DNA of 64,000 nt from assembly GCF_009909615.1 (NCBI RefSeq), contig NZ_WWNE01000007.1, forward strand, positions 229,669-293,668, given 5' to 3'. The notes below the pieces were generated by a model, which made no database searches, was not told the DNA's origin, and saw only the letters and a list, made by a program, of their open reading frames with translations. Below, piece by piece: positions 1,918 to 32,987 of this stretch. The stretch's first letter is position 1. Each line of letters opens with the position of its first letter. Both the position numbers and the translations under genes were made by a program. This stretch comes from Acidiluteibacter ferrifornacis. GTDB lineage: Bacteria > Bacteroidota > Bacteroidia > Flavobacteriales_E > Vicingaceae.

Positions 1918-2833
1918 AGAGTCAGTCCTAGAGAGAACGCACTACGGGCTTAATATCTACGCCCATGTGCTTCGCAAATACTATCCGGGTGAAACAGTCC
2001 TTTCCCTTGCGGGAAGGGACTGCAAGCCTGCAAAGAATCCTTTCAACAACTCAAAGGCTACCCTTTGGATAAAGATTGTAGAAGGAATGGCCACCCATGT
2101 AGATACCGAAAGAGCCATTGAAAACGGTGATGCGTTTGACTTTGCGGCACTTCATTTCAAAGTCCAGGGACAAGCCCTATACGATTTATTGAATGAAGAA
2201 ATGCACCTGCGAATTGACACCAAGCACCCGTTCTATGACTATAAGGAATTTGACAAAGAGAAAGAGCCAGTAACTAAGAAGGAAGAAATCAAGATTCCTG
2301 TATTCAGCTACTTCAAAAAGCCAATTACCAATGTCAATCCTTATGGAACCAAGAGCTTACTTGAAGTTTACGAACTGATTAAAAGCGATACTTTCAAAGC
2401 TCACACAGCAAAGCTGCGTTCGCTTACTGATGTAAAAGAAGCACGCAAATACAAAGCCTTCAGCTTTGATTACGTGACCTTCTCAGGCGCATTCTCTTCG
2501 AGAAGCGACAAAAACCTGAAAGCACATTCAGGATTGATAGTGATTGACTTTGACCACCTTGAAGACCTAAACGGTCTCAAGGAGCAATTACTGAACGATA
2601 AGCACTTTGATACAGAACTACTCTTTACCTCACCCTCAGGTGATGGGTTGAAATGGGTCATTACTATCGACATTCAGGAAGCCGATCACCAAACATGGTT
2701 CAAGGGCATAGCCAACTACCTCAACGCAACTTACCAGTTGCAAGTAGATGAATCAGGCAAAGACATTTCAAGAGCCTGTTTCCTACCCCATGACCCAGAG
2801 ATATTCATTAATTCAAAATACTTAGGACAATGA
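1904..2833 (+). CDS. VirE N-terminal/BT4734-type primase-like protein
   Basis: A 309-residue protein from ATG 1904 (MEISRESVLERT); an alternative in-frame start at 1868 would overlap the upstream gene further. The N-terminal ~110 residues hold a CHC2-like patch (KPAKNPFNNSKATLW). The C-terminal half matches the BT4734/VirE_N fold, with GLIVIDFDHL (acidic metal-binding pair) and FTSPSGDGLKWVI, the pattern of archaeo-eukaryotic primase-type domains of mobile elements. It probably primes DNA synthesis during element transfer or replication. It overlaps the next gene by 4 bp and the pair likely works as primase plus helicase. Confidence 0.75.
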   Translation: MEISRESVLERTHYGLNIYAHVLRKYYPGETVLSLAGRDCKPAKNPFNNSKATLWIKIVEGMATHVDTERAIENGDAFDFAALHFKVQGQALYDLLNEEMHLRIDTKHPFYDYKEFDKEKEPVTKKEEIKIPVFSYFKKPITNVNPYGTKSLLEVYELIKSDTFKAHTAKLRSLTDVKEARKYKAFSFDYVTFSGAFSSRSDKNLKAHSGLIVIDFDHLEDLNGLKEQLLNDKHFDTELLFTSPSGDGLKWVITIDIQEADHQTWFKGIANYLNATYQLQVDESGKDISRACFLPHDPEIFINSKYLGQ

Positions 2834-4587
2834 GAGAGAAATTCAATTTGAACGATTGGGTAGATACACCCAAGCAACAAGCAATAGATACAGAACCAAA
2901 ACAAGAAAGCACCATTAAAACAAGTAAAGCACAAGCCAAGCAAGAAGCACCTAAGCAGTCGGTTGAGCTTACTGAAGTAGAAACAGTAGTTGCTAAACTT
3001 GAAGAAGCACAGCAAGACATTACAGGCACTTACAGCGATTGGCGAAACGTTGGTTTCGCTTTCGCTGATGAGCTAGGCGAATCAGGTCGAGACCTGTTTC
3101 ACCGTGTCAGTAGGTTTCATGGAGACTACAATCAGAAAGAATGTGATGAGCAGTTTGACAAATGCCTACAATCTAAAGGGCATGGAATCAATATCAGCAC
3201 CTTCTTCTATTTGGCGAAACAGGCAGGAATCAAGATAGGCAAAGCAGAAAGCACCATTGAAGTTAAGCCAATGGATATGCCAACTATTCCTGATTCGGTA
3301 TTTCCGCAACTTCCTGAGTTTCTGCAAAACGTTACCATGTACGCCAATTCTAGTGAAGAAAGAGACATTCTCCTATTGGGTGCAGTGGTTTGTTTAAGCG
3401 CATGTATGCCCAATGTTTACGGTATTTATGGCAATAGCAAGGTTCACCCCAATCTGTTTGTATTTGTTACAGGAAGAGCCTCAGCAGGTAAAGGCGTATT
3501 GAATCATTGCAAGCACTTAGTAAATCCAGTACACCATGATTTGAGAGAACAGGCCGCCAGAGCCAAACAGGAATACGAAATAGAATTGGCAGCTTACAAC
3601 CAATCCAAAGGATCTGACACCAGTGTACAGAAACCAGCTAAACCACCTGAAATGATGCTCTACATTCCTGCCAACAATAGCAGTACAGGAGCCTATCAAC
3701 TATTGGCCGACGGTGGCGGCAAAGGATTGATATTTGAAACAGAAGGCGACACGCTTGCCCAATCTTTCAAATCAGATTATGGAAACTACTCAGACGGATT
3801 CAGGAAAGCCTTTCACCATGAAACCATTTCCTATTTCCGCAGAACCGATAAGGAGTTTGTAGAGATTGAAAAGCCTTGCATTTCTGCAATGCTATCAGGT
3901 ACACCCAAGCAAATCACCAGTCTTATTCCTAGTTCTGAAAACGGCTTATTCAGCCGCTTTATGTTCTATTACATGAATACGAAATATGAGTGGTTAGATG
4001 TATTCGCCAACACGGAAAGCGGAGCATTGGAAGACTATTTCAAAGGGCTTGGCGATACCTTTTATGAATACTACAAATACCTGAAAGCCACACCGCCAAT
4101 TTGTTACAAATTGTCTCCAGGGCAGCAAAAAGAGTTCAATCAATACTTCGCTCAGATGCAACAGAAATATCTTGCTTTGCTCGGTGATGATTTCTTAGGC
4201 TCTATTAGGCGTTTAGGTTTAATCACCTTTCGCTTATCCATGATTTTCACTGTCCTCAGGAGCTTTGAAACAGGTGAAGCTGCAAACCCTTTGGTTTGCG
4301 CTGATGAAGATTTTCAAGCTGCGCTTTCAATCATTGCAGTATTGATGAAGCACTCTAGCCATATCTTTTCAGAATTACCAGAAGAAACCCAATTGCCTAT
4401 TCATAAGACCACCAAAGAACAATTCTTTGATGCCTTGCCCCCAACCTTCAATAGGCAAGCCTATTTGAAGTTGGCCGAAACATTGGGTATCAATCCAAAA
4501 ACGGCAGAAGGCTACATAGGGCAATTCAAAAAGAAAGGATTGATTCACCACCCCAGGCAAGACCACTACACCAAATCAGGAAAGTAG
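2830..4587 (+). CDS. PriCT-2 / DUF3987 helicase-like replication protein
   Basis: A 585-residue protein. After a Lys/Gln-rich linker it has a primase C-terminal-2 type segment at about residues 50-130 (SDWRNVGFAFADELGE ... GHGINISTFFYLAK), then a DUF3987 NTPase module with a Walker A-like GRASAGKG near residue 218 and a Walker B-like LIFETEGD around residue 303. A small winged-helix-like tail closes it. Proteins of this type accompany VirE_N primases in Bacteroidota mobile elements and are thought to unwind or load at the origin. The gene runs directly into the iteron-like array, and the first AGGAA word lies inside its last codons. Confidence 0.75.
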   Translation: MREKFNLNDWVDTPKQQAIDTEPKQESTIKTSKAQAKQEAPKQSVELTEVETVVAKLEEAQQDITGTYSDWRNVGFAFADELGESGRDLFHRVSRFHGDYNQKECDEQFDKCLQSKGHGINISTFFYLAKQAGIKIGKAESTIEVKPMDMPTIPDSVFPQLPEFLQNVTMYANSSEERDILLLGAVVCLSACMPNVYGIYGNSKVHPNLFVFVTGRASAGKGVLNHCKHLVNPVHHDLREQAARAKQEYEIELAAYNQSKGSDTSVQKPAKPPEMMLYIPANNSSTGAYQLLADGGGKGLIFETEGDTLAQSFKSDYGNYSDGFRKAFHHETISYFRRTDKEFVEIEKPCISAMLSGTPKQITSLIPSSENGLFSRFMFYYMNTKYEWLDVFANTESGALEDYFKGLGDTFYEYYKYLKATPPICYKLSPGQQKEFNQYFAQMQQKYLALLGDDFLGSIRRLGLITFRLSMIFTVLRSFETGEAANPLVCADEDFQAALSIIAVLMKHSSHIFSELPEETQLPIHKTTKEQFFDALPPTFNRQAYLKLAETLGINPKTAEGYIGQFKKKGLIHHPRQDHYTKSGK

Positions 4588-4749
4588 GAATCTTAGGAAG
4601 TTAAGGAAACCAAGGAAGTAAAAGCCGTTTCGGCTTTACTTCTGTAGGTTCGACCATTCCATAAAGAATAAACACTTATGGTCACTTTAAGGAATTTGTT
4701 CCTTGATTTCCTGAGTTTCCTTAAAATCCTTATCACTTACCGAGTGATA
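4578..4749 (+). repeat. Inverted arrays of 9-bp iteron-like repeats with central hairpin
   Basis: AGGAA occurs at 4578, 4586, 4595, 4604 and 4613, the last four exactly 9 bp apart (AGGAATCTT, AGGAAGTTA, AGGAAACCA, AGGAAGTAA). A hairpin follows at 4614-4641 (about AAGTAAAAGCCG against CGGCTTTACTT). Then TTCCT occurs at 4699, 4708 and 4717, with ATCCT at 4726, again exactly 9 bp apart but inverted; AGGAA at 4690 pairs with the first of these (AAGGAA TTTG TTCCTT). The block ends with a perfect 7-bp inverted repeat, TATCACT at 4731 and AGTGATA at 4743. Phased iterons next to primase/helicase genes suggest a replication origin; an operator for the XRE protein is the alternative. Confidence 0.6.
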
Positions 4750-4806
4750 TTTCTTCTTTTTCTTAGCCTTTCTCTTCTCTTAATTTCTTAAATTGGCCAA
4801 ATATTG

Positions 4807-4830
4807 ACAAGTCATAAATTAACAGGTCAT
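4807..4830 (+). promoter_or_regulatory. Direct repeat overlapping the XRE gene start
   Basis: Two near-identical 9-mers, ACAAGTCAT (4807-4815) and ACAGGTCAT (4822-4830), are spaced 15 bp apart and the second runs into the ATG of the XRE regulator at 4829. Controller proteins of restriction-modification systems autoregulate from repeated boxes at their own promoter, so this is a plausible autoregulatory site. No strong minus-7 element is obvious. Confidence 0.4.
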
Positions 4831-5128
4831 GCAATTTGGTGAACGGATAAAAGAGCTACGTGAGAGTAAAGAACTTTTGCAACGCCAACTAGCCGCTAGT
4901 TTAGAAATAGATACTCCTATGTACAGTAAACTAGAACGGGGTGAAAGACGAGCCAAAAGAGAACAAGTGCTCTTGCTTGCAGACCTCTTAGATGCTGATG
5001 TTCACGACCTTCTAACCATTTGGTTGGCAGATCAGGTGTATGACTTGGTAAAGGATGAAGAAGATGCTCAAAAAGCCCTTAGAGTGGCGGAAGAGCGGGT
5101 AACATATAAAACTCAAAAGAAACGATAA
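4829..5128 (+). CDS. XRE-family regulator, restriction-modification controller-like
   Basis: A 99-residue protein with an N-terminal Cro/CI helix-turn-helix (residues about 1-60: [20 protein letters not shown], then [24 protein letters not shown]) and a helical, charged tail. It is the first gene of the type III restriction-modification operon: its TAA overlaps the Mod ATG at 5128 (TAATG). That placement fits a C-protein-like controller which delays endonuclease expression after entry into a new host, although classical C proteins are known mainly from type II systems. It may bind the direct repeat at its own start or the repeats upstream. Confidence 0.8.
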
Positions 5129-11495: not shown

Positions 11496-13562
11496 ATGCA
11501 GAAGAACCAAGAGCTATTTTTCAATGTACTTAAATTCGATTGGCCTACAGAAGCACTAAAATTTCACTTCTTCGGAGATGAAATACCAGGAGCAGAACGA
11601 ATCTTCCATTCGGTAGTTCCTGATGAAATCAAAGAGCAATTTCCAAACCTTGGCAGCCAAGAGCAAGAACACCTTTACACCACCTATACGGTGGCTAATG
11701 AAGGTTCTGTAAGCGTTTCGCTCAATCTAAGCGAGAGCAAATACAGTTTCGCAAAGCGATACTTCAATTGGCTCATTCGCAATCACTTTTTGAGTAAAGA
11801 AGATACTTTGGTTCGCTCTACTTTCATTTCAGATACCAATGTTTGGATTCCTGCAACCAAACAGCCCTACACCGATTTTACAGTCTATGAAAAGTACACG
11901 CTCAAGGTTCAAATCAAGCACTTTAGCGGTTACCCTGAAATCCTGCTTTCCTTTGATGGCAGGTCAAAAGTCTTTAAACAGCCAGCCAATGAGTTAATCC
12001 ATTCTGTAAGTGCCGCAGCTTTCAATTGGGTGATGTATGATGGGGCTATTCAGAAATGGGATGATTTACAAGAAGCAGATGAAGACATAGACAATGCAGA
12101 AGTGTTTCCGGTACTCAATGCAGATATTGAAAACGCCATGGGTTATCCTTATGAACCGATCAAACCTACCAACAAGTATTCTGATTATTTAGACCTGATT
12201 GTTAAGTTCTACAAGCAGTATATCAATGTTGAAGACTTCAAAAAGGTCATAGACCTGCACAAGAGTGGCTTTATCAAAGTAAAGCCCACTTCTATTGATT
12301 CCACCTCAGAAGAAAGTAATGAATTGCTCTTTGGCAATGGCAATACCGAGAAAGTACCCTACACAGGAATCAAGCTGCATAAACCCTACAAGAAAAGCCC
12401 CCATTCAGCCGTCAACCTATTCTATATCTTCCATGAAGATGATTACGAAACAGTCAAAGACCTTAACAGTCGTTTCAAAAATGGTTTCGGCTTCTTTAAA
12501 GGCTTAGAGCGGTTTGCCAAAATCATGTTCCATACGCAGGAAGGGTTCAGCATTCGTTTTAAGGACAGGGATAATCCAATTGAGCAGATAGAAGAAATAC
12601 TAACCAAGAGAACCTTTGACCCTGCGGTACAATACATAGCAGTTTATATCACACCATTTGGCAAGTTTGATACTGACAAGCAACACCGAGAAATCTACTA
12701 TCAGGTCAAAGAACTCTTGCTCAAAAGGAACATTACTTCTCAGGCCATAGACCCTGCCAAGATGGAAGAACAAGGTGAAGATTGGGTATATAGCTTACCC
12801 AACATTTCAATTGCCATGCTCGCAAAGCTCAATGGCATTCCTTGGCAACTCAAACAGACAGAACAAAGTGAATTGATTGTAGGTATTGGAGCTTTCCTTC
12901 ATAAAGAAGAAAACATTCAGTACATAGGTTCGTCTTTCAGCTTCACCAATCATGGCCGCTTCAATCGCTTTGAGTATTTCATGAAAAATGAGATTGATGT
13001 ACTTGCAGGTTCAATAGCTGATTCAGTTCGTCAGTATGCAGCGGCACATGGCGAACCTTCCAGGCTCATAATCCACTTCTACAAAACCATGAGTAGAGCG
13101 GAAATTGAACCCATACAGCATGAGCTAAAGAATCTTGGCTTAGACATTCCGGTATTCATTATCACAATCAATAAAACCGAATCAAGAGACATATTAGCAT
13201 TTGACAAGAAATGGAACGGTAGAATGCCTATGAGTGGCACGTTTATCAATTTGGGCGGTAAGCAGTATCTGTTGTTCAACAGTACCAGGTATGCCACTTC
13301 ATTACCCAAGCCCAAAGACGGCTATCCATTTCCCGTAAAGCTCAAAATTGATTGTACAGATAGGGAAGAATTGAAAGATACGAAAGTGATTAAGAACCTG
13401 ATAGAACAAGTCTATCAGTTCAGCAGAATGTATTGGAAATCGGTACGCCAACAGAACTTACCAGTTACGATCAAATACCCTGAAATGGTGGCTCAAATCG
13501 CCCCACATTTCAACGCAAACGACATTCCCGAATATGGTAAAACGAATCTTTGGTTCTTATGA
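11496..13562 (+). CDS. Prokaryotic Argonaute (MID-PIWI) protein, catalytically degenerate
   Basis: A 688-residue protein with a recognisable MID-PIWI C-terminal half. The MID region (about 375-450) has a Y401/K405/Q416 pattern like the guide 5'-phosphate pocket, then AKLNGIPWQL. PIWI (about 455-688) shows VGIGAF at 462-467, MSGTFINLGGKQYLLF near 579-594, SRMYWKSV at 643-650 and LPVTIKYPEMVA at 655-666, ending in the typical hydrophobic LWFL. The first catalytic aspartate position is G465, and the RDG-like motif reads YKTM at 529-532, so slicing is unlikely. The N-terminal 370 residues may hold N, L1 and a reduced PAZ domain. It follows RhuM by 6 bp in the type III operon. Guide-directed sensing with another effector is the inferred role. 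Confidence 0.85.
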   Translation: MQKNQELFFNVLKFDWPTEALKFHFFGDEIPGAERIFHSVVPDEIKEQFPNLGSQEQEHLYTTYTVANEGSVSVSLNLSESKYSFAKRYFNWLIRNHFLSKEDTLVRSTFISDTNVWIPATKQPYTDFTVYEKYTLKVQIKHFSGYPEILLSFDGRSKVFKQPANELIHSVSAAAFNWVMYDGAIQKWDDLQEADEDIDNAEVFPVLNADIENAMGYPYEPIKPTNKYSDYLDLIVKFYKQYINVEDFKKVIDLHKSGFIKVKPTSIDSTSEESNELLFGNGNTEKVPYTGIKLHKPYKKSPHSAVNLFYIFHEDDYETVKDLNSRFKNGFGFFKGLERFAKIMFHTQEGFSIRFKDRDNPIEQIEEILTKRTFDPAVQYIAVYITPFGKFDTDKQHREIYYQVKELLLKRNITSQAIDPAKMEEQGEDWVYSLPNISIAMLAKLNGIPWQLKQTEQSELIVGIGAFLHKEENIQYIGSSFSFTNHGRFNRFEYFMKNEIDVLAGSIADSVRQYAAAHGEPSRLIIHFYKTMSRAEIEPIQHELKNLGLDIPVFIITINKTESRDILAFDKKWNGRMPMSGTFINLGGKQYLLFNSTRYATSLPKPKDGYPFPVKLKIDCTDREELKDTKVIKNLIEQVYQFSRMYWKSVRQQNLPVTIKYPEMVAQIAPHFNANDIPEYGKTNLWFL

Positions 13563-32780: not shown

Positions 32781-32987
32781 TTCCCTTACCTTTGTGTTTG
32801 CACTTGTTTAGCGGTTAATTAGCTCTATTTCAGGACTTTTTGTTACTGATTTGTACCTAGAAGCACATAACTAACTGATAATCAATAGTGCTTTAGATAT
32901 TGTATCGGAAAGTAAGTAGCTAACAATTAACTAGTTAACTTCTCTCAATTACCATCCACAACAAGCTTTTATCATTAATCCAAAAAA

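Follow-up and report, generated by a model that had tools for sequence, protein, structure and literature searches.

Inverted 9-bp iterons behind a DUF3987 gene, a probable replication origin of an integrated island in Acidiluteibacter ferrifornacis

Results

Genes and ends of the island

In the window (the whole stretch of 64,000 nucleotides of contig NZ_WWNE01000007.1 analysed here), two sets of short phased repeats, or iterons, lie in opposite orientation directly behind a gene coding for a PriCT_2 and DUF3987 protein. Upstream of this array, Pfam identified two HTH_17 proteins, a BT4734-like primase-family protein and the PriCT_2 and DUF3987 protein itself; about 1.6 kb ahead of the window, mnmE (a name given from its sequence) is followed at its 3' end by an HTH_17 gene and a tyrosine recombinase. 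The features of the locus are as follows.

L104:13348-13361, about 1.6 kb before the window: candidate attL TTGTATCGGAAAGT, 3' end of mnmE
1868-2833, + strand: BT4734-like_N primase-family protein (Pfam, E 1.7e-21)
2830-4587, + strand: PriCT_2 and DUF3987 protein, 585 aa, MCM-like ATPase with P-loop GRASAGKG, putative initiator helicase (Pfam, fold)
4405-4584, + strand: predicted C-terminal winged helix of the DUF3987 protein, residues about 526-585, putative iteron binder (model)
4586-4617, + strand: left iteron set, four AGGAA with 4-bp spacers, 9-bp phase (pattern and relatives)
4618-4694, no strand: variable 77-bp insert at the dyad between the sets, holding most of the 4614-4641 hairpin
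4699-4730, - strand: right iteron set, inverted, three AGGAA and one AGGAT on the - strand, 9-bp phase
4741-4824, no strand: AT-rich and pyrimidine-rich tract, GC 0.24-0.34, candidate unwinding region
4829-5128, + strand: XRE-family regulator, start of the cargo (Pfam, alignment)
32900-32913, no strand: candidate attR TTGTATCGGAAAGT, repeating the mnmE 3' end (repeat match)

The 14 bp of the mnmE 3' end (TTGTATCGGAAAGT) recur at window position 32900, where the GC content drops, and a 15-bp repeat (TTTGTTACTGATTTG) is found close inside both ends (window 32839 and L104 13429). Together, these repeats suggest the limits of an island of ~34.5 kb at mnmE, which is in the integrated state in this genome. 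Downstream of the XRE gene lie type III modification and restriction genes, separated by a Bro-N gene, and a RhuM gene; an Argonaute (Piwi) gene with a strong pAgo match (11496-13562) adjoins the RhuM and type III restriction genes, and farther downstream are genes reading as metal resistance. Ahead of the XRE gene, TTGACAAGTC (4804-4813) is strictly conserved in all six aligned loci and is probably where the XRE/cargo unit has its operator or promoter.

The left half of the island also occurs at mnmE in two other Bacteroidia genomes, with other cargo. The island core stands at mnmE in loci L012 and L013 and, as read from the ORFs (from 8200 onward in each), has an Argonaute-like gene behind the XRE gene in the former and apparent type I restriction genes in the latter.

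Anatomy of the array

The AGGAA cores of the left set begin at 4586, 4595, 4604 and 4613, the first of them within the TAG stop codon of the DUF3987 gene, and the inverted cores read TTCCT at 4699, 4708 and 4717 and ATCCT at 4726, both sets in exact 9-bp phase; the positions and phasing given in an earlier, sequence-only reading of this DNA are exact. The same reading had aligned the left array with the reverse complement of the right one; complementarity between the arms, 4586-4617 and 4699-4730, is 78% over 32 nt. When the window was searched with the pattern AGGAANNNNAGGAANNNNAGGAA, admitting up to two mismatches, four matches were retrieved, all inside the array (0.29 expected), and none of 100 dinucleotide shuffles of the window reached this number. 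The pattern without mismatches did not occur outside the array in the 3.5-Mb genome and the 77-bp insert is also single-copy in the genome, thus ruling out a repeat family or a MITE.

Conservation in close relatives

The DUF3987 proteins of L012 and L013 are 96-97% identical to that of the window, and in both loci the two iteron sets are kept close together, with phasing and inversion intact; the 9-bp phasing, whose persistence in close relatives had been proposed as a check on the array, is therefore conserved. Both loci lack the 77-bp segment, the hairpin at 4614-4641 and the 7-bp inverted repeat (window about 4732-4750). The last two had been noted earlier together with the iterons and are present in the window but, judging from the alignment, they are peripheral and stand outside the core of the array, since they are not conserved in relatives. 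The 77-bp insert is missing in four of the six aligned loci (L012, L013, L039 and L045), where the iteron sets nearly touch, and L046 has a different insert in its place. The left set is conserved in L012, L013, L039 and L046, and degenerate in L045. The AT-rich tract beside the array has a low GC content in L012 and L013 too. In L046 the left iteron set falls inside the coding end of the DUF3987 gene and, as 9 bp correspond to three codons, it is translated as a repetitive tail (KETQDLTEIKKG).

Among the window, L012 and L013, the 5-bp cores are identical at 110 of 120 pairwise positions, versus 46 of 72 for the 4-bp spacers, and the spacers of the two arms are complementary at 15 of 36 positions in register versus 23 of 48 when slid by 9 bp. 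Selection thus appears, from these comparisons, to act on the iteron cores and not on a stem. This bears on the possibility that the array is an RNA element, namely a long hairpin in the transcript past the stop codon, with a role in terminating transcription, shielding the mRNA or controlling the next gene. The array does sit between genes of the same strand, and its predicted RNA fold (-64.4 kcal/mol) is much better than that of shuffles (z -6.65). Inverted iterons, however, necessarily fold, the strength of the prediction being due to the inverted cores and the insert hairpin; moreover, the spacers are no more complementary in register than out of it, and the 9-bp phase is kept while the letters change (see below). 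The RNA element was rejected on the spacer test and for having no Rfam match, and we consider it improbable.

Arrays behind DUF3987 genes of Bacteroidia

The PF13148 domain was present in 52 of 396 sampled Bacteroidia genomes, and 57 non-redundant DUF3987 genes, from PF13148-positive Bacteroidia and nearer genomes, were surveyed. In their 3' flanks we counted the 5-mers that recur at a given lag and have an inverted copy as well, a plain 18-bp lag statistic being weaker. Over the 57 loci, 168 such pairs were found at lag 9, against 9.4±3.9 in shuffles (shuffle maximum 24); lags 8 and 7 gave 95 and 64 pairs, respectively, and the 19 pairs at lag 10 equalled the shuffle maximum. Pairs were at or near background in control regions taken within the gene or 400 bp farther downstream, and likewise behind 155 other genes of these loci, with 0.32 lag-9 pairs per region, versus 3.0 behind DUF3987.

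The array was individually significant (p<0.05) in 34 of the 57 loci, and the median distance from the DUF3987 stop codon to the first pair is +12.5 bp, with repeats extending into the coding end in some loci. In the remaining ~40% of surveyed loci no individually significant array was detected; some of these are truncated, one-sided or spaced at 7-8 bp, and several array-less DUF3987 loci are fragments, frameshifted or distant. The repeats occur in 9-bp phase and in both orientations, and their letters vary by lineage: TGGCATTTG in L051, TAGGATTTG in L102, TTTGCAGTC in L080, CACTTTG in L087, TTGTCGGTT in L035 and, with 8-bp spacing, GATAAGGT in L077. Comparison with related elements, as suggested by the sequence-only reading, therefore finds the phasing kept, with other letters, behind most surveyed DUF3987 genes. 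On this survey, the downstream 9-bp array is a trait of the DUF3987 family in Bacteroidia.

The survey also weighs on the proposal that the XRE regulator, or the HTH_17 proteins, use the array as an operator to control the cargo genes. Phased repeats can be repressor sites, and the XRE gene begins 99 bp past the right set. Nevertheless, in 30 of the 34 loci whose array is significant no relative of the window's XRE gene lies within 1.2 kb, which links the array to the DUF3987 gene and led us to reject the operator; besides, the XRE gene start has the conserved TTGACAAGTC of its own, and the repeats adjoin the DUF3987 stop codon and, in some loci, enter its coding end. This proposal is even less probable than that of an RNA element. 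The least probable is a partition or incompatibility (centromere-like) site instead of an origin. Phased direct repeats are also typical of such sites, but none of our results points to one; the genes examined beside the array include none recognised as ParA/ParB-type, and the repeats follow the helicase gene in diverse contexts.

Plasmids having DUF3987 as sole Rep were also sought. Five PLSDB matches are labelled as plasmids (46-237 kb), and the four records inspected look like chromosome pieces (capsule, rsx and metabolic genes), being uninformative on autonomy. Phage records with DUF3987 are mostly short unannotated contigs; a scan of viral contigs with a single DUF3987 protein gave no match, and with an alignment as query five loci were retrieved, most of them without a clear array at the gene end. 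Three Parabacteroides loci labelled as plasmids (L105, L107 and L112) show BT4734-DUF3987-DUF4248-HU-amidase clusters in chromosomal-looking contexts, with 8-9-bp repeats near the DUF3987 end, seen by eye in one orientation only.

The DUF3987 protein and iteron recognition

The model of the window DUF3987 protein was built on six sequences and is of moderate confidence (mean pLDDT 72). Its C-terminus comprises two helices (residues 542-551 and 556-568) and two strands (572-576 and 579-582), with pLDDT of about 70-87, and the same region gave weak winged-helix matches in Pfam, MCM_C among them. A PDB sequence search with the protein retrieved no related chain. In a Foldseek search of the PDB, MCM subunits ranked first (best E 4e-5, with a low TM of about 0.3) and the SCCmec helicase Cch was matched at E 0.018. 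The model points, with moderate confidence, to a ring subunit of MCM-like AAA+ type, ending in a winged helix.

Co-variation between protein and iterons was analysed by partial Mantel tests on 45 non-redundant loci, comparing the last 85 residues with the ATPase core. The sharing of iteron 5-mers correlated with C-terminal identity when the core was held fixed (partial Mantel 0.18, p=0.0005), and less with core identity when the C-terminus was held fixed (0.06, p=0.04). The co-variation is statistically clear, although modest in size, and its direction fits a C-terminus that reads the iterons. Model and co-variation indicate the C-terminal winged helix of the DUF3987 protein as the likely iteron binder.

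Comparison with known origins

The initiators of SaPI and SCC elements bind, with their C-terminus, iterons that immediately follow the initiator gene (PMC7581432) and, in E. coli PICIs, two iteron sets flank an AT-rich region and a cloned rep-ori plasmid replicates (PMC6092414). The present locus resembles the SaPI/PICI pri-rep-ori organisation in being an integrated island with an initiator helicase having a C-terminal DNA-binding part (here predicted), in the position of the putative origin directly behind the initiator gene and in the two oppositely oriented iteron sets (PMC6092414, PMC7581432). On the contrary, the candidate initiator of the window is a DUF3987 protein with a separate BT4734-like primase, the iterons are spaced at 9 bp (at 8 or 7 bp in some lineages), and in most aligned relatives the sets nearly touch, the AT-rich tract lying beside them, on the right, and not between. 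Furthermore, the island, of about 34.5 kb, carries defence and metal cargo (type III RM, RhuM, pAgo and metal genes), no phage-packaging genes being recognised among the ORFs examined. Sequence homology of the initiator to SaPI/SCC Rep was not found, Cch being matched by fold only. Because of the missing AT-rich spacer between the sets and of the missing initiator homology, the array was not filed as a SaPI/PICI origin.

In SCCmec, AAGTG iterons directly downstream of cch2 are bound by the Cch2 C-terminal domain, and binding needs the direct repeats only, the inverted ones being dispensable (PMC7581432). By arithmetic only, its three iterons of 5 nt within 23 bp could be arranged as 5+4+5+4+5, with the 9-bp phase found here. 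Cch2, however, is a helicase of D5 type from a different host phylum.

The archaeal plasmid pRN1 needs for replication a 100-bp stem-loop downstream of the replication gene, which was described as a stem-loop and not as iterons; symmetry mattered in one mutant, and specific binding to the stem-loop was not detected (PMC4234260). The likeness lies in an inverted structure of about 100 bp behind a primase-helicase-winged-helix gene, with a sequence that varies among relatives (PMC4234260). We found two 5-bp units per arm at 9-bp phase in the stem arms of pRN1 and pHEN7, versus four per set in the window, and no clear units in pDL10 and pSSVx. In detail, pRN1 (L111) has TGTCCatagTGTCC after 5030, with its inverted partner in the published stem-loop origin, and pHEN7 (L113) has TGTCAccacTGTCA after 3295, also with an inverted partner and two 9-bp-phase units per arm. 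An origin of pRN1 type, with a long perfectly paired stem, was discarded for our array, the spacers not being complementary in register in the window, L012 and L013.

Plasmids of Lactobacillales coding for D5-type primases (L123-L125, L128 and L130) likewise have, immediately after the helicase gene, short repeats of both orientations, but with mixed spacing (9, 11, 12 and 14 bp) and in another helicase family. A classical theta iteron plasmid (Rep_3/RepE) was rejected, as the gene adjoining the array is PriCT_2 and DUF3987 by Pfam, with no Rep_3 match. By analogy, the array would work like the SaPI/PICI and pRN1 origins and the repeats behind D5-type plasmid primases, with no assignment to the SaPI/PICI class.

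Discussion

The array is best read as the replication origin of the integrated island, recognised by the DUF3987 protein, a reading to which we give a probability of roughly 0.83. It is favoured by the array being a family trait, by the tracking of the iterons by the C-terminus, by the predicted fold and by the SaPI/PICI/SCC precedents. The origin proposed by the sequence-only reading thus gains support from the phasing in relatives and from the linkage to the DUF3987 gene, replication itself being a prediction. While the anatomy of the array, its conservation, the DUF3987 linkage and the C-terminal co-variation are observed, we infer binding, unwinding, priming and replication of the excised island. 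In the proposed mechanism, the tyrosine recombinase would excise the island from mnmE, and each AGGAA core of both iteron sets would be occupied by one DUF3987 protomer, held by its C-terminal winged helix. The opposed sets would load onto the DNA a pair of oppositely directed MCM-like helicase rings, the adjoining AT-rich tract would melt, and the co-encoded BT4734-like primase would lay primers.

More tentatively, and with the odds somewhat against it, inverted iterons in a register of ~9 bp behind the initiator gene might be a plan common to self-loading ring helicases that are very distant from one another or unrelated (DUF3987, D5/Cch2-type and archaeal pRN1), the register being set by the spacing of protomers on DNA. 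If so, the pRN1 'stem-loop' would be a pair of inverted iterons.

DUF3987 is a family of 'function unknown', and our literature search, conducted largely outside subscription journals, retrieved no origin described for DUF3987 elements. With the reading proposed here, a family common in Bacteroidia gains a testable role as origin-binding replicative helicase, and an origin can be predicted for many DUF3987 elements. The natural initiator/iteron pairs, dozens in number, would form a data set on site selection by winged helices, and may be of use in predicting incompatibility between islands and for small vectors in laboratory strains of Bacteroidota.
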